Below, piece by piece: positions 207 through 9,493 of a stretch of 9,493 bases of DNA. How positions within the stretch are numbered: position 1 is the first letter of the stretch; the number at the start of each line of letters is the position of its first letter. Both the position numbers and the translations under genes were made by a program. This DNA comes from Deltaproteobacteria bacterium RBG_13_61_14 (GTDB taxonomy: Bacteria > RBG-13-61-14). Under the pieces are notes generated by a model. It did not search any database, was not told the origin of the DNA, and saw only the letters and a list, made by a program, of their open reading frames with translations. Location of the stretch: assembly GCA_001797815.1 (NCBI GenBank), contig MGQK01000055.1:1-9493 (forward strand), read 5' to 3'.

Positions 207-860
207 ATGAAGGTGAAGGTTGGGAATCGGTTCGGGGTCATCCTGGCTTTTACCCTGATGTTGGCGGTCGGTGCGGCCCAGGAAAAGGAAAACTCGGAGC
301 ACTTCGGCACCCAGATGAACCACCCCAAGTTCAAAGGCCCGGGAGACTTTTTCGGCTCCTTCGCGCGAGTGGCCAAGATCTTCCTCTTCAAAAAGCTCGA
401 CGGCCAGCGCGTGCTCCGGCCCTGGGTGGACAACCACGGCTGGCTTACCCCTGCCTTCCGCGAGCAGTTGTGCCTGGTGGTGACCCTCAACAACCATTGC
501 GTGGGTTGACACAAAGCGCACTCCCAGTTTGGGAGACAGGCGGGATTAAGCGAAGAGGACATGGTCAAGCTGACCGACCTTGATCCCAATGATTTCGAGC
601 GCAGGACCTGGATCGCCCTGGCCTGGGCCCGGGATTGGGCCCTGTTTCGGGGAGTGATGCCGGACCAGGGGTTGGTGGCCGAGTTCGAATCGTCTTATAC
701 CGAGCAGGAGCGCCGGGACATTTTGGCTACGGTCACCGCCATGGACTTTGCCAACAGGTTCATGAACACCGGCACCGGAGATTTCCTGGTGCCGCCGACT
801 AAAAATTCCAAGGCAAAAATAATCCGGAAAAAAGAATTGCGCGGGGTCGACCAGGGATAA
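207..860 (+). CDS. AhpD-like (carboxymuconolactone decarboxylase family) selenoprotein, Sec101 encoded by in-frame TGA
   Basis: This is a single frame of 217 residues if the TGA at 507-509 is read as selenocysteine. The motif is C98-V-G-U101-H-K-A-H105, matching the AhpD/CMD signature CxxCxxxH. A Glu (E86) sits 12 residues before the first Cys, the same spacing as the proton-relay Glu in mycobacterial AhpD. Sec replaces the second, peroxidatic Cys. The part after TGA has the usual helical second half of the family (FERRTWIALAWARDW, then TEQERRDILATVTAMDFANRF). Residues 1-24 look like a Sec signal peptide: basic MKVKVGNR, a hydrophobic stretch, then GAA before Q25. The ATG at 207 follows an AGGGGG Shine-Dalgarno at 196-201. 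Likely role: extracytoplasmic thiol/peroxide redox enzyme; the exact substrate is unknown. An alternative is a nonsense-mutated pseudogene, but the SECIS-like hairpin and intact downstream frame argue against it. Confidence 0.85.
521..535 (+). promoter_or_regulatory. Bacterial SECIS-type stem-loop for selenocysteine insertion
   Basis: CTCCCA (521-526) pairs perfectly with TGGGAG (530-535) around the loop GUU (527-529). The loop begins with G followed by U, the bases known to matter for SelB binding in the E. coli fdhF SECIS. That G lies 17 nt after the last base of the UGA, inside the window known for bacterial SECIS elements and close to the fdhF spacing. A weak lower extension is possible between CGC (517-519) and GCG (540-542). 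The hairpin lies inside the coding sequence, as bacterial SECIS elements do. Function is inferred from geometry. Confidence 0.75.
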
Positions 861-889: not shown

Positions 890-2047
890 TTACACCGAGC
901 GCGCCTGCACCAGCTCCGCCAGGTCCATCACCCGGAGCGCCGATTCCAGGGCCTCGGCCTTGACCGCGTCTTCCAGCATCTTGGCGCACTTGGGACAGGC
1001 CACGGCCAGGACTTGGGCGCCGGTGGCCGCGGCCTCCCGCACCCGGACCCGGGAGGAACTGTCCGGGCCGCTGCCCAGGAGGTCGGTGAAAAAGTTGCCG
1101 CCGCCTCCGCCGCAGCAGAGCGCGTCCACCCGGGCGCGGTCCATTTCCGCCAGTTCCACCCCAGGCAAGGCCGCCAGCACCATCCTCGGGGTCAGGTAAT
1201 CCTGGTTGTGCCGGCCCAGGTAGCAGGGGTCGTGGAAGGTGACCGTGAGCGGGGTGTCCGCTCCCTGGTCCTTCCCTTTGCTCATCATCCTGGCCAGCAC
1301 CTGGCTGTAGTGGAGCACCTGGAAAATCCCGTTGAACCTGGGGTAGTAGTTCCTGATCGCGTGATAGGCGTGGGGGGAGAGGGTGATGATCTTGACAACG
1401 CCCGCGTCCAGGAACTTGGCGATGTTATGCCGGGCAATCTCTTCGAACAGTCCGGCCTCGCCCATGGCCCGGACCTCGTTCCCGTCGCAGCGCTCTAAAG
1501 CGCCCAGGATCCCGAAGGACACTCCCCGGTCCTGGAGAAGGCCGGCCACGGCGCGGGCCATCTTCCGGCCCCGCTCGTCGTAAGAGCCGGCGCACCCGGC
1601 GAAAAAGAGATATTCCTGCCCGCGATACGGCTCCAGCCCCAAACCCTTGGCCCAGGCTCCCCGATCCGCCTCGGGCAGCTTATACGGGTTGCCATACAAG
1701 TGGATGGCCTTGAAGAAATCCGACACCCGCCGGGGAACCGAGCCCTCGTTGACCAGTTCCCCCCGGCCGGCGGTGATGGCGTTTAAGACGTCGGCCTTGA
1801 ACTTGGGGAACACGCAATGCTCCACGCAGTTGCCGCAAGCGGTGCAGGAAAACAGGATCTCTTGCAGGCGGGCGCTGGTGGGGATCTCCTCATCCAGCCA
1901 GGCCCGGAGCAGCCACATGCGGCCGCCGGGCGAGTAGGTCTCGAACCGGTATTGCAAATAGGAGGGGCAGTTCAGGTCCTGGTAGGAGCCGGGCAGCTTG
2001 CAATATCCGCAGCGGAAACAGCGGTGCAGGATTTCCGCGTGTTCCAT
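890..2047 (-). CDS. CCG-domain (HdrD/GlcF-like) iron-sulfur oxidoreductase subunit
   Basis: This 385-residue cytoplasmic Fe-S protein belongs to the HdrD/GlpC/GlcF type. The N-terminus carries two ferredoxin-like cysteine sets: C10, C13, C16 and C27 (the last spaced by ten residues, which is unusual), then a regular set C68, C71, C74, C78. Two CCG domains follow. The first is degenerate (FAGCAGSYDERGR at about 149-161, ERCDG at 185-189, SPHAYH at 224-229). The second is complete: C275, C311-C312 and CPKC at 351-354, a pattern known to bind a non-cubane [4Fe-4S] cluster in HdrB. No membrane segment is visible, unlike DsrK partners or HdrE systems. It is the last gene of a three-gene operon, its ATG lying 1 bp after the stop of the FAD gene, with GGGAGG at 2054-2059 as ribosome binding site. 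Likely role: electron-transfer subunit of a flavin dehydrogenase. Confidence 0.85.
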   Translation of the reverse strand: MEHAEILHRCFRCGYCKLPGSYQDLNCPSYLQYRFETYSPGGRMWLLRAWLDEEIPTSARLQEILFSCTACGNCVEHCVFPKFKADVLNAITAGRGELVNEGSVPRRVSDFFKAIHLYGNPYKLPEADRGAWAKGLGLEPYRGQEYLFFAGCAGSYDERGRKMARAVAGLLQDRGVSFGILGALERCDGNEVRAMGEAGLFEEIARHNIAKFLDAGVVKIITLSPHAYHAIRNYYPRFNGIFQVLHYSQVLARMMSKGKDQGADTPLTVTFHDPCYLGRHNQDYLTPRMVLAALPGVELAEMDRARVDALCCGGGGGNFFTDLLGSGPDSSSRVRVREAAATGAQVLAVACPKCAKMLEDAVKAEALESALRVMDLAELVQARSV

Positions 2048-2048
2048 G

Positions 2049-3425
2049 TTAGGCCTCCCAGTTTCCGGGGTTCATGATGCCCTGGGGGTCGAGGACCGCC
2101 CGCAGGCGGTTCATCAGCGCAAAGGTATTCGGGTCCATCTTCTTGATGATCTGCTTCTGGGCCGGGGTCTCGGCTTTCCAGGGGATGCCGCCCATTTCCA
2201 GGACCATGGCATTGGTATCCTCCAGGGCCGTCTGGGCCCGCCTCACGTCCGCCTGGTCCGCGCGGTTGAAGGCATAGGCGTAAAAGAACATCATGCAGTG
2301 GGCCAGGCCCACGATCCGCGCGCCCAGGGAGTAAGGGACCTTGCGGCTCTCCGCGATCTCAAGGCCCTTGCGAAAGGCCGGGGCAAAGAGTTCGACGGGC
2401 ATGATGGCTCCCACGTATTCGAAGCCGCCGCCTTTGTTCACGTCGGCAAAGACCGCCAGGGTGGATTGGGGCGCTTCCAGGAAGCGCACTTTCATGTCCG
2501 GGGGCAGGGGCATGAATCCCCCGACCTTCCGCTCGAGGTAGGGGCGAACCGACTCGCGGATCAGGTCCCGCTTCAAGGTCAGTTCGGCCTTGGTCTCGGC
2601 GCCGTAGGCGATGTTGATCATCTGGAAGCCTTTTGCCCAGTCCGGCTTGGGCGACATCCAGGCCAGGATGTCCTCCGCCACCTGCACCCGCGCCAGCCGA
2701 CGGATGATGTCCGGGGCCAGTTCCGGGTCTTCGATCACAAAGATGCCCACGTCGTTCCAGGGCCGGGCCGGGAAGAGCTTGATCGCGAGTTTGGTAACCA
2801 CCCCGGTGGTCCCGTGCCAGCCGAGAAACAGCCCGGCCAGGTCCGGGAGCGGCGATCGGGAAAACCAGTAGGGGGAAGCGGAGCAAGACCCGATCCGCGC
2901 CACTTCGCCGGTGGGCAGAACCACTTCCAGCCCGTTGAGCATTTCCGAGTGAAAGCCGCCGGCGGCCGAGAGATGACCCGAACCGTGGATGAGCACGTTG
3001 CCGCCGATGGTGGCGATGGGAGGGGCATCCGGGATGGAATGCTTGAGCCGGGGGTGATGTTTTTTCAAGTAGGCCTGGAGCATGCCCTGGGAGGCGCCCG
3101 CCTCCACCACCACGTAGCTGCTCGCCTCGTTCACCTCCAGGATCCGATTCATGCGTTTCATGTCCAGCACCATGCCCCCTTGCAGGGGCCGGGAAAGGCC
3201 GGACAGGACCAGCCCTCCGCCCATGGGCACCAGGGGGATCTTCTGGCGGTTCGCCAAGCGCACGATCTTTTGCACTTCCTCGGTGGTATTCGGCATCACC
3301 ACCCAGTCCGGCGCATGAGGCTCCATGGTCCCGGGATCACGCGAATACAGGAACCGCTCTTCCGGCTGATTCGAAACGAAGCGTTCCCCCACGATCTTGA
3401 CCAGTTCCCGGTAAATCTCCTCCAT
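2049..3425 (-). CDS. FAD-binding oxidase/dehydrogenase of the VAO/PCMH (GlcD-like) superfamily
   Basis: This is a 458-residue flavoprotein. The FAD-binding PCMH fold lies in about residues 35-210, with P45-N-T-T-E-E-V, the pyrophosphate loop VPMGGGLVLSG (66-76) and a glycine-rich ATIGGNVLIHGSGH block. The C-terminus ends in a typical FAD-oxidase tail, DPQGIMNPGNW. The metal/substrate motifs HxGDGNxH and EHGxG of GlcD and D-lactate dehydrogenases are not visible. The tail MDPNTFALMNRLRAVLDP instead recalls the 4-cresol dehydrogenase/vanillyl-alcohol oxidase branch. A 2-hydroxyacid substrate should therefore not be assumed. Between two CCG Fe-S genes, it probably oxidises an organic substrate and hands electrons to them, as GlcD does with GlcF. 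It starts 4 bp after the stop of the upstream Fe-S gene and ends 1 bp before the next start. The fold is confident; the substrate is unknown. Confidence 0.85.
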   Translation of the reverse strand: MEEIYRELVKIVGERFVSNQPEERFLYSRDPGTMEPHAPDWVVMPNTTEEVQKIVRLANRQKIPLVPMGGGLVLSGLSRPLQGGMVLDMKRMNRILEVNEASSYVVVEAGASQGMLQAYLKKHHPRLKHSIPDAPPIATIGGNVLIHGSGHLSAAGGFHSEMLNGLEVVLPTGEVARIGSCSASPYWFSRSPLPDLAGLFLGWHGTTGVVTKLAIKLFPARPWNDVGIFVIEDPELAPDIIRRLARVQVAEDILAWMSPKPDWAKGFQMINIAYGAETKAELTLKRDLIRESVRPYLERKVGGFMPLPPDMKVRFLEAPQSTLAVFADVNKGGGFEYVGAIMPVELFAPAFRKGLEIAESRKVPYSLGARIVGLAHCMMFFYAYAFNRADQADVRRAQTALEDTNAMVLEMGGIPWKAETPAQKQIIKKMDPNTFALMNRLRAVLDPQGIMNPGNWEA

Positions 3426-3429
3426 GAAA

Positions 3430-4461
3430 TCACCCCCAGAACCCTTCGCCCAGAGCGATCCGGCAAAGGTCGCTGATCAGGATCGGGGTCATGCCCCGCT
3501 CCGCCACCATCCCTTTCAAGGTCATAAAACACATCGGGCAATTGAACACGCAATAGCGGGCGCCCACCGCGGCCATGTCGTCCAGGTTTCGCTTTTGAAT
3601 AGCATCGGCCCGGTCGTCCCGCTGCGCCGCCTGGACCACCATCCCGCAGCAGAGCGCGTTTTCCCCCTCGTATTCGCGCGCGGGCCGGATGGCGCCGATC
3701 AGCTTGAAGATCTCATCCACCCAATGCTGGGTCTCCGGGACCAGGCGGTTGGAGCAGGGCCGCTGGTAGGCCACCTTGGCGTTGATCGGCCGGATCTCCT
3801 TTTTGAGCTCGGTCAGCTTTTTCGTGAGATATTCGAAGAGGTGGATGGGCTTGAAGGGAACCTCGATGCCAAAGGCCGGAGCCAACTGGGTGTAGGTCCC
3901 GAAGCACTCGTCGTGAAAACAGATCAGCTCGTCCACCCCGCTGACCTTGAGATAATAATCCATGAGGTTGTTGATCACTTTCGGAAGGCGCTCCCGGATC
4001 ACCGAGTTCTTGGCGAAATGAAGCCACATGATGTTGCAGAAAAGATCGTTGCCGCCGATGATCGAGGCCCCGGCGAAGAGCTTGCCCTGGATGCTGCCGG
4101 CCAGCATGGGAAAGGAGCAGAGGTTGATCACCGGCGCGGAAACCTTTTGGGCGACTATCTGCCCCTTGGGCGCCATCATGGCGATCTGCTGCTTGGTGAG
4201 CGGGACCGGCACCGGCCACGCTGAAAGTTCTTCCTGCCGGTCCACGATCAGGTAAAAAGGGTGGTTGTGGTAAGGGCAATACTCCTCGCAGGCGTAGCAG
4301 GTCAGGCACTCGTGCAGCACCCGCGAGTCCCGGCCGGCCAGGATCTTCATCCACTCCTGCCGCGCCTCTTCCAGGTCCAGGGCGATGTGCTGGCAACGGG
4401 TGAGACAATCAATCTTCTCGCACTTCGTGCAAATCTTCTGATCATATTTCAATTCAGACAC
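3430..4461 (-). CDS. CCG-domain (HdrD-like) iron-sulfur protein, first gene of the FAD/Fe-S operon
   Basis: This is a 343-residue soluble Fe-S protein. Two N-terminal cysteine sets are visible: C11, C14, C19, C23 (CxxCx4Cx3C, slightly atypical) and a standard C52, C55, C58, C62-P. One complete CCG domain lies at C236, C271-C272 and CPMC (308-311), giving Cx34CCx35CxxC. The upstream half has only a degenerate counterpart (C181, C186). It resembles HdrD/DsrK-type subunits without a membrane anchor. Translation starts at GTG, supported by a strong AGGAGGGGG Shine-Dalgarno just upstream on the minus strand (about 4466-4474). It leads the operon, followed after 4 bp by the FAD oxidase. It shares domain plan but little obvious sequence with the 385-residue protein at the operon end, so the pair probably form two distinct electron-transfer subunits of one complex. 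Confidence 0.85.
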   Translation of the reverse strand: MSELKYDQKICTKCEKIDCLTRCQHIALDLEEARQEWMKILAGRDSRVLHECLTCYACEEYCPYHNHPFYLIVDRQEELSAWPVPVPLTKQQIAMMAPKGQIVAQKVSAPVINLCSFPMLAGSIQGKLFAGASIIGGNDLFCNIMWLHFAKNSVIRERLPKVINNLMDYYLKVSGVDELICFHDECFGTYTQLAPAFGIEVPFKPIHLFEYLTKKLTELKKEIRPINAKVAYQRPCSNRLVPETQHWVDEIFKLIGAIRPAREYEGENALCCGMVVQAAQRDDRADAIQKRNLDDMAAVGARYCVFNCPMCFMTLKGMVAERGMTPILISDLCRIALGEGFWG

Positions 4462-4576
4462 TGCTCCCCCTCCTTAGCGGCGGGCCTCCGAATGGACGAA
4501 GACGAGTGGATATGGATTGGCGGTCCAGGCGTTACGTTACACCAGGCCCTGAAGCAGCGCAAGCGGATTCTCAATC

Positions 4577-4712
4577 TTGCCCTCCCGCAGTTTTCCGGTA
4601 AACCGGGGGTAGGGGCGCGATTTATCGCGCCCTTGCCGGGACTGGGCGCAATGAATTGCGCCACTACGAAGGCCGAAAATATGCGGTGCGGAAAAAAACT
4701 GAGGGAGGGCAA
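4577..4712. repeat. MITE-like palindromic element, 136 bp, with inverted ends and flanking direct repeats
   Basis: The ends are an 18-bp inverted repeat with one mismatch: TTGCCCTCCCGCAGTTTT (4577-4594) against AAAACTGAGGGAGGGCAA (4695-4712). Directly outside, GGATTCTCAATC occurs as a 12-bp perfect direct repeat at 4565-4576 and 4713-4724, resembling a target-site duplication, although 12 bp is long for one. Inside are three palindromes: CCGGT-AA-ACCGG (4595-4606), GGGCGCGAT-TT-ATCGCGCCC (4613-4632) and GGCGCAAT-GA-ATTGCGCC (4645-4662). An outer GTAGGGG/CCACTAC pair (4609-4615, 4661-4667) brackets the last two. There is no transposase, so it would be non-autonomous. It could also be a REP-like or transcriptional structure. 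Confidence 0.65.
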
Positions 4713-4798
4713 GGATTCTCAATCTCCGGCTCTGAACTTCGGTTATCCGTTGTCTGATCCACGCTTGGCCTTAGCCGGGGATGGAGGGGGACTTTTAC

Positions 4799-4827
4799 TT
4801 GCTTTTTCAACAAGGTTTTGCTATTTT
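4799..4827 (+). promoter_or_regulatory. Weak sigma70-like promoter candidate for the kor operon
   Basis: TTGCTT (4799-4804) and TATTTT (4822-4827) are separated by 17 bp in an AT-rich stretch that contrasts with the GC-rich surroundings. Each box matches four of six consensus bases. The leader to korD would be about 120 nt. Matches of this quality arise by chance in AT-rich DNA. Confidence 0.25.
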
Positions 4828-4949
4828 TAAAAATCAAGATTAAACTGAGCCGGCATATCCAAAGGGCATTCTGGAATCCACCAGATACCTTCTTTCAGAT
4901 GATGTAGCTTACCGAACACTTCAACCCGTAGCGAGAAGAAGGAGAAAGA

Positions 4950-5216
4950 ATGAAATATTGGAGAGTTCCCCTTGACCTTGGAACGATCCCGGCGAGCCGG
5001 GGCAAGGTCATGGTCATCGAGGAGAGGTGCAAGGGCTGTGAATATTGTATCGAATTCTGCCCGCGCGAGGTGTTGCAGATGTCCCGGGCCTTTAATCCCA
5101 AGGGTTACCATTTCCCCGAGGTGGGGGACGAGTCCAAGTGTGTCAACTGTCATTTTTGCGAGGTGCTCTGTCCGGAGTTTGCCATCTTTTCGCTGGCGGA
5201 GCCGGCGGTTGCCTAG
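4950..5216 (+). CDS. korD: 2-oxoacid:ferredoxin oxidoreductase, delta (ferredoxin-like) subunit
   Basis: This 88-residue protein carries two [4Fe-4S] motifs: C27, C30, C33, C37-P and C64, C67, C70, C74-P. It is the small 2[4Fe-4S] subunit that carries electrons between the catalytic alpha/beta subunits and free ferredoxin or another acceptor. Size and the pattern KGCEYCIEFCP fit KorD/VorD-type subunits. Translation starts at an ATG preceded by AAGGAG (4939-4944) with a 5-nt spacer. It is the first gene of the kor operon, 37 bp ahead of the alpha subunit, and the order delta-alpha-beta-gamma is the usual one for four-subunit Kor/Vor enzymes. It is cytoplasmic. Confidence 0.9.
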   Translation: MKYWRVPLDLGTIPASRGKVMVIEERCKGCEYCIEFCPREVLQMSRAFNPKGYHFPEVGDESKCVNCHFCEVLCPEFAIFSLAEPAVA

Positions 5217-5253
5217 ATGATAAAGCTTCAGGAAACATGACAGGGGGAGCGAC

Positions 5254-6411
5254 GTGGCTGGCAAAGCGGTCTTGACCGGAACTTATTTCATGAACGGCGA
5301 CGAGGCCTGCTGCGAGGGGGCCCTGGCCGTGGGCTGCCGGTTTTTTGCGGGTTATCCGATCACGCCGGCCACCGAGGTGGCGGAGCGGATGTCCTGGCGT
5401 CTGCCCGAAGTGGGAGGCATCTACATCCAGATGGAGGATGAGCTGGCCTCCATGGCCGCGATCCTGGGCGCGAGTTGGGGCGGGGTCAAGGCCATGACCA
5501 GCACCTCGGGCCCGGGCTTTTCCCTGATGATGGAAAACATCGGCCTGGGATTATGCACGGAAACGCCCTGCGTGGTCTGCAACGTCCAGCGCGCCGGTCC
5601 CAGCACCGGGCTCCCCACCCTGGTGGCGCAAGGGGACATGATGCAAGCGCGCTGGGGCGCGCATGGGCATTATGAAATCATCGCGATCGTGCCGTCCTCC
5701 CCGCAGGAAATGTTCGACTTTACCATCCGGGCTTTCAACCTTTCTGAACAATACCGCCTGCCGGTCCTGATCATGGCCGACGAGGTGGTGGGCCACATGA
5801 ACGAGCGGGTGGTAATCCCGCCCGCGGACCAGATCCAGGTGGTGTCCCGGAAAAAGCCCTCGGTCCCTCCGGACCAGTATCGGCCCTATCAGCCGGGCCC
5901 GGACGGAGTCGCGCCCATGGCCGACTTCGGGGACGGCTATCACATGCATGTGACCGGGTTGACCCACGACGAGCGCGGCTATCCGGTGATGGATGCCGCG
6001 ACCCAGGAGCAGATGATCAACCGGATCGTGAGTAAAATCCGGGACCATGCCCATCAAATCATCAGCTATGACGCCATCGCCATGGATGATGCGGAGGCGG
6101 CGGTGGTGGCTTACGGGATCAGCGTCCGGTCTGCCCGGCGGGCCGTGGCCGAGGCCCGCGGCCGCGGGATCCGGGCCGGGCTGATCAAGTTGAACACGGT
6201 CTGGCCCTTCCCGGAAGAGATGATCCGGGACCTGGCCGGCCGGGTCCGGGCCCTGGTGATGCCGGAGATCAACCTGGGCCAGATGGTGCGGGAACTCGAG
6301 CGCGCCGCGGCCGGCCGCTGCCGGGTCCGGCTGGTGCCCCATGCCGGCGGAAGCATCATCCGGCCCGGAGCGATTGTGCAGGCCGTCGAATCGGCGCTCA
6401 AGGAGGCGTGA
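5254..6411 (+). CDS. korA: 2-oxoacid:ferredoxin oxidoreductase, alpha subunit
   Basis: This 385-residue subunit has the family hallmarks. The N-terminus reads GTYFMNGDEACCEGAL. YPITPATEV (34-42) is the YPITP motif involved in substrate/CoA handling. QMEDELASM follows at about 59-67, and TSTSGPGFSLMME after that. The C-terminal third holds the second transketolase-like domain (VVAYGISVRSARRAV, LIKLNTVWPFPEE). With KorB it makes the thiamine-diphosphate-dependent core that oxidises a 2-oxoacid to acyl-CoA and CO2, or the reverse. The sequence does not by itself separate 2-oxoglutarate from branched-chain 2-oxoacids; the gene order suggests Kor or Vor. It starts at GTG with AGGGGGAG (5242-5249) as ribosome binding site. 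Its TGA stop overlaps the korB ATG by one base, indicating translational coupling. Confidence 0.9.
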   Translation: MAGKAVLTGTYFMNGDEACCEGALAVGCRFFAGYPITPATEVAERMSWRLPEVGGIYIQMEDELASMAAILGASWGGVKAMTSTSGPGFSLMMENIGLGLCTETPCVVCNVQRAGPSTGLPTLVAQGDMMQARWGAHGHYEIIAIVPSSPQEMFDFTIRAFNLSEQYRLPVLIMADEVVGHMNERVVIPPADQIQVVSRKKPSVPPDQYRPYQPGPDGVAPMADFGDGYHMHVTGLTHDERGYPVMDAATQEQMINRIVSKIRDHAHQIISYDAIAMDDAEAAVVAYGISVRSARRAVAEARGRGIRAGLIKLNTVWPFPEEMIRDLAGRVRALVMPEINLGQMVRELERAAAGRCRVRLVPHAGGSIIRPGAIVQAVESALKEA

Positions 6412-7307
6412 TGAGCACGAAAAAGAAAAAGCCGGACGCGCCGCATCCTCACGATGAGCTGTTGCGGACGGACCGGATGCCCCATATCTGGTGCACGGGC
6501 TGCGGCATCGGCACCGTGTTCAGTTGCGTGCTTTCGGCCGTGGAGAAATCCGGGACTCCCTTGGACGACGTGGCCATGGTCTCCGGGATCGGCTGCACCG
6601 GCCGGATGGCCGGCTACCTGAAACTGGATTCCTTCCACACCACCCACGGCCGGGCCATCCCCTTTGCCACCGGGTTGAAGCTGGCCCGGCCCCAGGGATG
6701 CGTCATTGTCGCTTCGGGCGACGGCGACCTGCTCGCCATCGGCGGCAACCACTTCATCCATGCCGCCCGGCGCAACCTGGATCTCACCGTCATCTGCGTC
6801 AACAATTTCAACTACGGCATGACCGGCGGGCAATTGGCGCCGTCCACTCCGTTTGGGGCCAGGACGACCACCAGCACCCAGGGCTGCTCGGAAGAACCCT
6901 TCAACTTCTGCGCGCTGGCCGCGGCCTGCGGCGCGGTGTATGTGGCCCGCTGGACTTCCCTGCACATCCGCCGGCTCACCACCTCGATCGGCGAGGCCAT
7001 GAACAAGCGCGGCTTTTCTTTCGTGGAGGTCCTGACCCCTTGCCCGACCTCTTTCGGCCGGCACAACAAGATGCGCAAGCCGCTCGAACTGCTCAAGTTC
7101 TACCATGAGCGGTCGGTGATCCGGAACTATATTGATCCCAAGGACGCCGTCCTCGACTTCAAGAAAAATTTGGTGGTGGGCAAGTTCGTGGACATCGAGC
7201 GGCCCACCTTCCTGGACAATTACCGATTGCTCAACCGCGGAGAGCTGGGGGATTGGCCCGATCTGGAGCCAAAGCTGCCGCGGCCGGAAAAGCAGGCGTC
7301 AGGATGA
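6411..7307 (+). CDS. korB: 2-oxoacid:ferredoxin oxidoreductase, beta (thiamine diphosphate) subunit
   Basis: This 298-residue subunit binds thiamine diphosphate and an [4Fe-4S] cluster. The TPP/Mg motif is G103-D-G-D through N131-N132 (GDGDLLAIGG ... VNNFNYGMTGGQ). Cluster cysteines are recognisable as C28 and C31 (WCTGCG), C62 (GIGCTG) and C211 (TPCPTS). THGRAIPFATGLK is also typical. I chose the ATG at 6411, which overlaps the korA stop and lies 4 nt after AGGAGG (6401-6406). A GTG at 6408 is in frame but only 1 nt from that site. The N-terminus (SKKKK-rich, about 20 residues) is a variable extension. The next gene overlaps its stop as ATGA. Confidence 0.9.
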   Translation: MSTKKKKPDAPHPHDELLRTDRMPHIWCTGCGIGTVFSCVLSAVEKSGTPLDDVAMVSGIGCTGRMAGYLKLDSFHTTHGRAIPFATGLKLARPQGCVIVASGDGDLLAIGGNHFIHAARRNLDLTVICVNNFNYGMTGGQLAPSTPFGARTTTSTQGCSEEPFNFCALAAACGAVYVARWTSLHIRRLTTSIGEAMNKRGFSFVEVLTPCPTSFGRHNKMRKPLELLKFYHERSVIRNYIDPKDAVLDFKKNLVVGKFVDIERPTFLDNYRLLNRGELGDWPDLEPKLPRPEKQASG

Positions 7308-7903
7308 TGACCATGCCGGCACGCAACGAAAAAGAAATTTTGATCACCGGATTCGGGGGCCAGGGGATTGTGCTGACCGGCAGCATCCTGGGCAAGGCCG
7401 CGACTCTGTATGACCGCCGGCACGCCACCATGACCCAGTCGTATGGGCCGGAGGCCCGGGGAGGTTCCTGCTCGTCCCAGGTGATCATCAGCGAGGAAGA
7501 GATCCTCTTCCCCTATGTGGAACAGCCGCAGGTCTTGATCTGCATGAGCCAGGAAGGCTATGACAAGACCAAAGCCTCCCTGGTCCCCGGCGGGCTTTTG
7601 ATCTGGGACACGGACCTGGTGACGACCCGCGAGCTGGAGCCGAGCTGGACCGCCTACCAGATCCCGGCCACCCGGTTTGCCGAGGAATTGGGCAACAAGA
7701 TGATGGCCAACATTGTCATGCTCGGCTTCTTGTCCGCGGTGAGCGAGCTGGTGGGCGTTGATTCCTTGCGCCAGGCGGTGCAAAGCTCGGTGCCGGCCAA
7801 GACCCGGGACACGAATGCCAAGGCCTTTGAACGGGGCCGGGAGTATGGCGAAAGCCTGCTCAAGAGCCGGGCCAAAAAAGACCAGGGTCAGGAGCAGGCG
7901 TGA
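7304..7903 (+). CDS. korC: 2-oxoacid:ferredoxin oxidoreductase, gamma subunit
   Basis: This 199-residue subunit belongs to the POR/KOR gamma family. ITGFGGQGIVLTG (about 14-26) is the glycine-rich family signature, and TQSYGPEARGG (44-54) is the second conserved block. The gamma domain contributes to CoA binding and to the assembly of the catalytic dimer. Possible starts are ATG at 7304, 7307 and 7313. I chose 7304 because it forms the ATGA overlap with the korB stop and lies 7 nt behind AGCAGG (7291-7296). The frame is open further upstream but only within korB. The C-terminus is charged (RAKKDQGQEQA). The stop overlaps the GTG of the next gene. Confidence 0.9.
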   Translation: MMTMPARNEKEILITGFGGQGIVLTGSILGKAATLYDRRHATMTQSYGPEARGGSCSSQVIISEEEILFPYVEQPQVLICMSQEGYDKTKASLVPGGLLIWDTDLVTTRELEPSWTAYQIPATRFAEELGNKMMANIVMLGFLSAVSELVGVDSLRQAVQSSVPAKTRDTNAKAFERGREYGESLLKSRAKKDQGQEQA

Positions 7904-9493
7904 GCGAAGCGAAAACATCCGCGGCGCCCGCGACCGCGGTCTTGATCGCCGGCTCGGGCTACGGCGCCCTCAAGGTGGCCGAGGATCTCGCCCAATCCGG
8001 AATCCCGGCGGTCTGGGTGACCCGGGCCCAGCATTTCCTTAAGCTGCCGGCCGGGATGGAATACCTGCCCGAATGGCCCGAGGACTTGAGCTTCCAGTTC
8101 CGGCCGCTCTACCTGCGGGTCACCCGCCATCCCCTGGTGACCCCGCTCACCCGATCGCGGATCGAATCCATCGAAAAGACCGGAGACAATTTCCGGGTCG
8201 TGGTGGAACAAGATCCCCACTTCATTGATTATGACCTGTGCAGCGGCTGCGGCCGCTGCATGGAAATCTGCCCGCTGCGCGAAAGCCCGCATCCGCCCCT
8301 GACCCGCACCCCGGCCTATTGCCCCTCCCGCGCCCTGGAACTGGACAAGCGACCGATCAGTCCTTGCCGGCTCGAGTGCCCGTTGGGGGTGAACGTCCAG
8401 GCTTACCTGGCGCTGACCGCGGCCGGCCGGTTTGAAGAGGCCTTGGCCGTGATCCGGGAAGACAATCCTTTGCCCAGCATCTGCGGCCGGGTCTGCCCCC
8501 GTCCCTGCGAGGCATCCTGCCGCCGGCGCGAGCTGGACCAGCCCCTGGCCATCCGAGACATCAAGCGCTTCCTCGCCGACTATGTTCGGGAGCACGGATC
8601 CAGCTTGCCGAAAGCGCCTCCTCCTCCCCGGCGCCGGGAACGGGTGGCCGTGGTCGGGTCCGGCCCGGCCGGGCTGACCGCGGCTCATTTTCTCTGCCGG
8701 GCCGGTTTCCCGGTTACCATCTTCGAGGAATTGCCCGAGCCCGGCGGCATGCTGCGCTGCGGCATCCCGGCCTATCGCCTGCCCCGCGACGTCCTCGATC
8801 GGGAAATCCAGGACATCCTCGCCGCGGGGGTAGAACTCCGCGCCGGCGTCCGGGTGGGCCGGGAAATCAGCTTTGACCAGTTGGTTCAGGAGTTCGACAT
8901 CATCTTCCTGGCCGTGGGCGCGCACCAGAGCTATGCCCTGAATATTCCGGGCGAGGATGCGGAAGGGGTGCTCGGCGCGGTCGAGATGCTGCGGGCCTAT
9001 CACCTGGGCCGGAATTTCCAAATCGGGAAGAAGGTGGCCGTGATCGGCGGCGGCAACTCCGCGATTGACGCGGCCCGGACCGCGATCCGGCTGGGCGCGG
9101 ACTCGGTCACCGTCTACTACCGGCGCGAGCGCAAGGACATGCCGGCGCAGGAGCCCGAGATCCAGGCGGCCGAGGCCGAGGGAGTTGAGATCGAGTATCT
9201 GGTCGGTCCCGCCCGGGTGAAGGTCACCGACTCCAAGGTTTCGGGCCTGCAACTGATCCGGATGAAATTGGGCCGGATGGGCCCGGACGGCCGGCGACTG
9301 CCGGAGCCGATCCCGGGCTCGGAATTCTTGGTGGAGGCGGACACCATCATTTCCGCCATCAGCCAGAGCGCGGACCTCGAATTCCTTCCGGAAACCAGCC
9401 GGGTGGAAAAGACCCGGAATGCCATCAAGGTGGATGAGGCGTTCCGCACCTCGCGGCCGGGCGTGTTGGCCGCCGGCGACGGGGTGACCGGGC
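7900..9493 (+). CDS. HdrA/GltD-type FAD-dependent oxidoreductase with Fe-S domains (partial, runs off the window)
   Basis: The frame stays open for 531 codons from a GTG (7900) that overlaps the korC stop; AGGAG (7890-7894) lies 5 nt upstream. N-terminal about 110 residues: a glycine-rich nucleotide-binding start (VLIAGSGYGALKVAEDL), as in HdrA-like proteins. Then a ferredoxin motif C114, C117, C120, C124-P. Residues 150-220 form the GltD/DPYD-type Fe-S domain: C156, C160, C195, C199, C203, C207 with ICGRVCPRPCEASC. Next come an FAD Rossmann motif G253-S-G-P-A-G with the EEL-PGGMLRCGIPAYRLP block, and an NAD(P) motif G383-G-G-N-S-A followed by YYRRERKDMPA. The end approaches the GltD tail (GVLAAGDGVTG), so little of that domain is missing; further domains may follow. 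Likely role: electron exchange between ferredoxin/Kor and NAD(P)H, possibly related to Nfn- or Hdr-type flavin chemistry. Substrate specificity is inferred from context only. Confidence 0.85.
   Translation, partial: MSEAKTSAAPATAVLIAGSGYGALKVAEDLAQSGIPAVWVTRAQHFLKLPAGMEYLPEWPEDLSFQFRPLYLRVTRHPLVTPLTRSRIESIEKTGDNFRVVVEQDPHFIDYDLCSGCGRCMEICPLRESPHPPLTRTPAYCPSRALELDKRPISPCRLECPLGVNVQAYLALTAAGRFEEALAVIREDNPLPSICGRVCPRPCEASCRRRELDQPLAIRDIKRFLADYVREHGSSLPKAPPPPRRRERVAVVGSGPAGLTAAHFLCRAGFPVTIFEELPEPGGMLRCGIPAYRLPRDVLDREIQDILAAGVELRAGVRVGREISFDQLVQEFDIIFLAVGAHQSYALNIPGEDAEGVLGAVEMLRAYHLGRNFQIGKKVAVIGGGNSAIDAARTAIRLGADSVTVYYRRERKDMPAQEPEIQAAEAEGVEIEYLVGPARVKVTDSKVSGLQLIRMKLGRMGPDGRRLPEPIPGSEFLVEADTIISAISQSADLEFLPETSRVEKTRNAIKVDEAFRTSRPGVLAAGDGVTG

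Follow-up and report, generated by a model that had tools for sequence, protein, structure and literature searches.

The locus lies at the start of contig MGQK01000055.1 of Deltaproteobacteria bacterium RBG_13_61_14, the first 9493 nt of which were analysed and are referred to here as the window. An AhpD-like gene occupies positions 207–860 of the forward strand, in a frame that opens with the ATG at 207, closes with a TAA at 858–860 and is preceded on the same strand by a good to strong ribosome-binding site (AAGGGGGA, 195–202). The frame contains an in-frame TGA at codon 101 (507–509) and, with this codon translated as selenocysteine (Sec, U), gives a product of 217 residues. The initial annotation had claimed that the two halves, ending in LNNHCVG and resuming with HKAHSQF, join without a break, and translation confirms the motif C98-V-G-U101-H-K-A-H105 (Cys98, the opening residue of CxxU, 498–500; His105, 519–521) together with the Glu, here Glu86 (462–464), that was said to lie twelve residues N-terminal to Cys98. 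The statement that the korA-, korB- and korC-like genes ordinarily end in TGA is also correct, and since TGA is a normal stop in four other genes of the window, general recoding is not the explanation for codon 101. The rest of the window (890–9493) contains a cluster of genes for CCG-domain Fe-S, FAD-oxidase-like, ferredoxin-like and korABC-like 2-oxoacid oxidoreductase proteins; a long oxidoreductase gene follows this cluster and extends beyond the window (7900–11268 in L023).

In the GC-rich genome of the host, a TGA is followed by 116 or more open codons in 7.6% of cases. Because such frames are in themselves not rare, the case for a selenoprotein is built on homology rather than on the length of the frame. 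The Pfam CMD domain (PF02627) is matched by residues 77–120, a stretch that spans the TGA, with 23.8 bits against a cut-off of 23, and a profile search of PDB sequences produced an alignment with PA0269 (2IJC/2O4D; E about 2e-7) that includes the motif and puts a Cys opposite the Sec; homology across the TGA, the lack of which the initial annotation had regarded as fatal to its reading, is present. Profile searches covered 386 genomes sampled across the domain and 377 genomes of one phylum. Among 38 of the matches from other genomes, a few of which are weak (e.g. L051) and four of which lack the His, the position of U101 is occupied by Cys in 34, by a TGA codon in four and by nothing else in any, which agrees with the earlier expectation of Cys or Sec at this position. 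Cys98 is matched by Cys in all 38 and His105 is conserved in 34, and the column of Glu86 is conserved in most homologues. Of all the evidence, we give most weight to this Cys/Sec exchange among the homologues. A tRNA-Sec above the Rfam cut-off is present in each of the four genomes that have the TGA form (G086, G354, G152 and G276); none above that cut-off was found in the two nearest Cys-form genomes checked (G289, whose phylum is represented by only two genomes, and G375) or in two order-mates of the host. The TGA-form AhpD-like genes of other genomes are located at L040:1381–1962, L029:1480–2010, L038:1468–2004 and L045 (about 1501–1794), with the TGA at the CxxU position. Only two other genomes could be reached through the host's order, class and phylum, and neither has a homologue. 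Protein-pattern scans of genome contigs and viral contigs yielded no relative, which is weak evidence of absence because the words used were 7–8 residues long, one of them reading Sec as Cys.

The host genome has a paralogue of the window gene on contig C45, with 48% identity, a TGA at the same codon (its motif reads CAAUYQVH) and a score of 30.1 bits against PF02627 (cut-off 23). Comparison of the post-TGA parts of the two paralogues gave dN 0.38 and dS 1.48 (NG86), values from which we judge that purifying selection acts on this part of the gene. In the tree the two paralogues pair (99/97), and most proteins of the clade that holds them have Cys. That Sec arose only once within the sampled tree is unsupported, the Sec rows needing five changes of which at least two are forced by well-supported branches. 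If the TGA were instead a genuine stop, or a mutation in a pseudogene, the locus would encode a truncated AhpD-like protein followed by an independent or dead frame; neighbouring genes do usually end in TGA, but nothing else speaks positively for this explanation, and against it stand the sharing of the TGA by two diverged paralogues at the same catalytic codon, the purifying selection downstream of it, the occurrence of only Cys or TGA at that position in homologues, and the loss of most of the fold from a product cut off ahead of the second catalytic residue. We consider such a stop very improbable, and positions 207–860 very probably constitute a single selenoprotein gene whose product has an AhpD-like (CMD) fold.

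A predicted bacterial SECIS hairpin (CUCCC-AGUUU-GGGAG, 521–535 of the forward strand, loop 526–530) is conserved in the paralogue as CUCCC-GGUCC-GGGAG at an equal distance from the TGA, both copies having a stem of 5 bp (CTCCC/GGGAG) and a G-U loop. The loop geometry matches the bacterial SECIS pattern N1-G-U-N-N2 (PMC13188914), and the N1–N2 closing pair is A-U in the window gene and G-C in the paralogue, a compensatory difference that changes both amino acids. The stem requires the Arg codon AGA or AGG, and Arg110 is AGA in both copies, a codon that accounts for one of the 194 Arg codons across the other window genes. Where the two copies encode the same residue, the codons are identical at nine of ten sites in the first 17 codons after the TGA, as against 19 of 42 later (Fisher p 0.011). 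The hairpin alone has an energy of −7.3 kcal/mol in the window gene, just short of the published SECIS limit of −7.5 kcal/mol (PMC13188914), and of −8.1 kcal/mol in the paralogue. As background, about 10% of the TGAs in the host genome pass a loose SECIS model and 0.9% have a G-U loop with a 5-bp stem. Because minimum-energy folding of a longer window stretch preferred an alternative structure and gave no clear signal (z −1.4), the element is argued from its position, conservation and codon use.

The presence of selA, selB, selD and tRNA-Sec in the host, which the initial annotation had left to be checked, is established: all four lie within about 6 kb in one cluster on contig C7 (selD 373 bits, selA 562 bits, selB 355 bits, tRNA-Sec 68 bits with anticodon TCA). 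The selD gene is itself a selenoprotein gene, with an in-frame TGA (L053:1531–1533) within CKASGU, where this enzyme usually has its Sec, and a SECIS-like hairpin is found 16 nt past this TGA, a spacing nearly the same as in the window gene. The assembly is fragmented (132 contigs), so that a Cys codon might in principle have become TGA through sequencing or assembly error, but two genes that lie on separate contigs would then have to have acquired the identical change at the same codon, both with the conserved hairpin downstream and both in a genome that has a complete Sec system; the probability of such an error is negligible.

Judged by sequence and by modelled structure, the window protein belongs to the CMD/AhpD-like superfamily (PF02627). 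The AlphaFold model is all-helical, with the CxxC/U motif at a helix start and core pLDDT values mostly above 90, and in a Foldseek comparison with the PDB the best matches are AhpD-like, with PA0269 first (probability 1.00, best E value only 1.4e-3). PA0269 of Pseudomonas aeruginosa (2IJC, 2O4D, 7XW1), the best match in both structure and PDB sequence, differs from the window protein in having Cys in place of Sec, a shorter chain that lacks the hydrophobic stretch at the N-terminus, and Tyr50 in place of Gly100. The relay residues of PA0269 and Mycobacterium tuberculosis AhpD (Glu36/118, Cys48/130, Cys51/133 and His55/137; PMC3141380) map to Glu86, Cys98, Sec101 and His105. The window protein accordingly has four of the five residues that make up the relay in M. 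tuberculosis AhpD, and the fifth, His132 (the counterpart of Tyr50 in PA0269), is Gly100 here and Ala in the paralogue. By alignment to Cys133, position 101 would be the peroxidatic one. M. tuberculosis AhpD (1GU9, 1KNC) thus has Glu118, Cys130, Cys133 and His137 in common with the window protein, but it is a weak fold match (rank 36, E about 1), possesses the His132 that the window protein lacks and, unlike the latter, is not a selenoprotein. It is a cytoplasmic protein, a peroxidase that is reduced by a redox partner.

That the class itself is not new, as the initial annotation stated, is correct: AhpD-like or CMD-like selenoproteins with CxxU have been described since 2005, when they were found in the Sargasso Sea metagenome (PMC1088965), followed in 2008 by 'AhpD-like 2' (pfam02627, CxxU) in the GOS metagenome (PMC2398784), and such proteins are tabulated in a 2026 review (PMC13188914). 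Compared by published description, these metagenomic proteins share with the window protein the CMD/AhpD fold, a CxxU motif with Sec in second position, Cys homologues and a post-UGA hairpin, whereas the N-terminal signal or anchor and the occurrence of two copies in the one host genome set the window protein apart. The class is known, and apparent export is the sole unusual point of the window protein. Every curated Sec-AhpD family that matched did so with a score under its cut-off. With NF053654 (YciW-related (seleno)protein; cut-off 310) the window protein scores 13.2 bits and the paralogue 30, a distant homology around CxxU that lies so far under the cut-off that the window protein is not a member; a literature search on this family yielded nothing specific. 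TIGR01926 (peroxidase-related enzyme) gave 19 bits against a cut-off of 81.8, and TIGR00778 (AhpD core domain, cut-off 27.8 bits) gave 23.5 bits for the window protein and 29 for the paralogue. The NCBIfam Sec-AhpD models NF041047, NF041238 and NF041537 did not match either copy among the matches listed.

Residues 1–24 (MKVKVGNRFGVILAFTLMLAVGAA, encoded by 207–278 of the forward strand) form a predicted N-terminal signal peptide or anchor, with a positive N-region, a hydrophobic core and a possible cleavage site, VGA-AQ, as judged by hydropathy; the hydrophobic 12-mer VILAFTLMLAVG has a mean Kyte–Doolittle value of 2.6, and residues 8–24 are helical in the model. The signal peptide described in the initial annotation is, by these features, plausible. 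The window protein appears to be exported, and the N-terminus of the paralogue is likewise hydrophobic. In the nearest homologues (L025, L026 and L040) the arrangement is seemingly opposite to that of the window protein, with a hydrophobic segment at the C-terminus and no signal at the N-terminus, and several proteins of the mainly Cys-containing clade around the paralogues seem to bear such a C-terminal segment instead. The likely start codon of the paralogue, an ATG at L019:2094 within ATGA, overlaps the stop codon of a thioredoxin-like gene (PF13098, CRQC; L019:1456–2666, minus strand) whose product has a signal-like N-terminus. This overlap suggests translational coupling of the two genes and, together with the signal-like and hydrophobic N-termini, suggests that the thioredoxin-like protein and the paralogue are exported as a pair. 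No thioredoxin neighbour of the window gene is visible because the contig begins at window base 1, 206 bases upstream of the frame.

We propose that SelB and Sec-tRNA decode the UGA at 507–509 as selenocysteine, directed by the hairpin directly 3' of it, a step to which both sequence and comparison lend support. The N-terminal signal would then export the protein from the cytoplasm or anchor it in the membrane, where the selenolate of Sec101, activated by Glu86 and His105, may attack a peroxide or disulfide and Cys98 may resolve the product by forming a selenenylsulfide. This bond would be reduced again by a thioredoxin-like protein outside the cytoplasm, the best candidate reductant being the product of the thioredoxin-like gene that overlaps the paralogue. 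Taken jointly, we hold the proposed chemistry and location to be about evenly balanced between right and wrong; a role as an extracytoplasmic selenol peroxidase or oxidoreductase is likely. It is quite possible, if somewhat doubtful, that Sec is correctly assigned and yet the protein is no peroxidase but an extracytoplasmic thiol-disulfide (or other redox) oxidoreductase working with a thioredoxin-like partner. The predicted export of the N-terminus, the coupling of the paralogue to a thioredoxin-like gene and the absence of the AhpD relay His132 would fit such an activity, as would the different chemistry of some AhpD-fold proteins such as the debrominase Bmp8, whereas the Glu, Cys, Sec and His of the peroxidase relay are otherwise retained.

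The selenoprotein reading repairs a gene that standard annotation would divide in two. It also supplies two paired, well-supported selenoprotein genes for a lineage that has been little sampled. The arrangement at the paralogue suggests that Sec-containing AhpD-like proteins can act outside the cytoplasm with a thioredoxin-like partner. More tentatively, and with a confidence that falls just short of even, the two paralogues may represent a separate extracytoplasmic Sec-AhpD subfamily, outside every curated family, with a dedicated secreted thioredoxin-like reductant; if this is true, they would form part of a redox pair in the cell envelope that is based on selenium.
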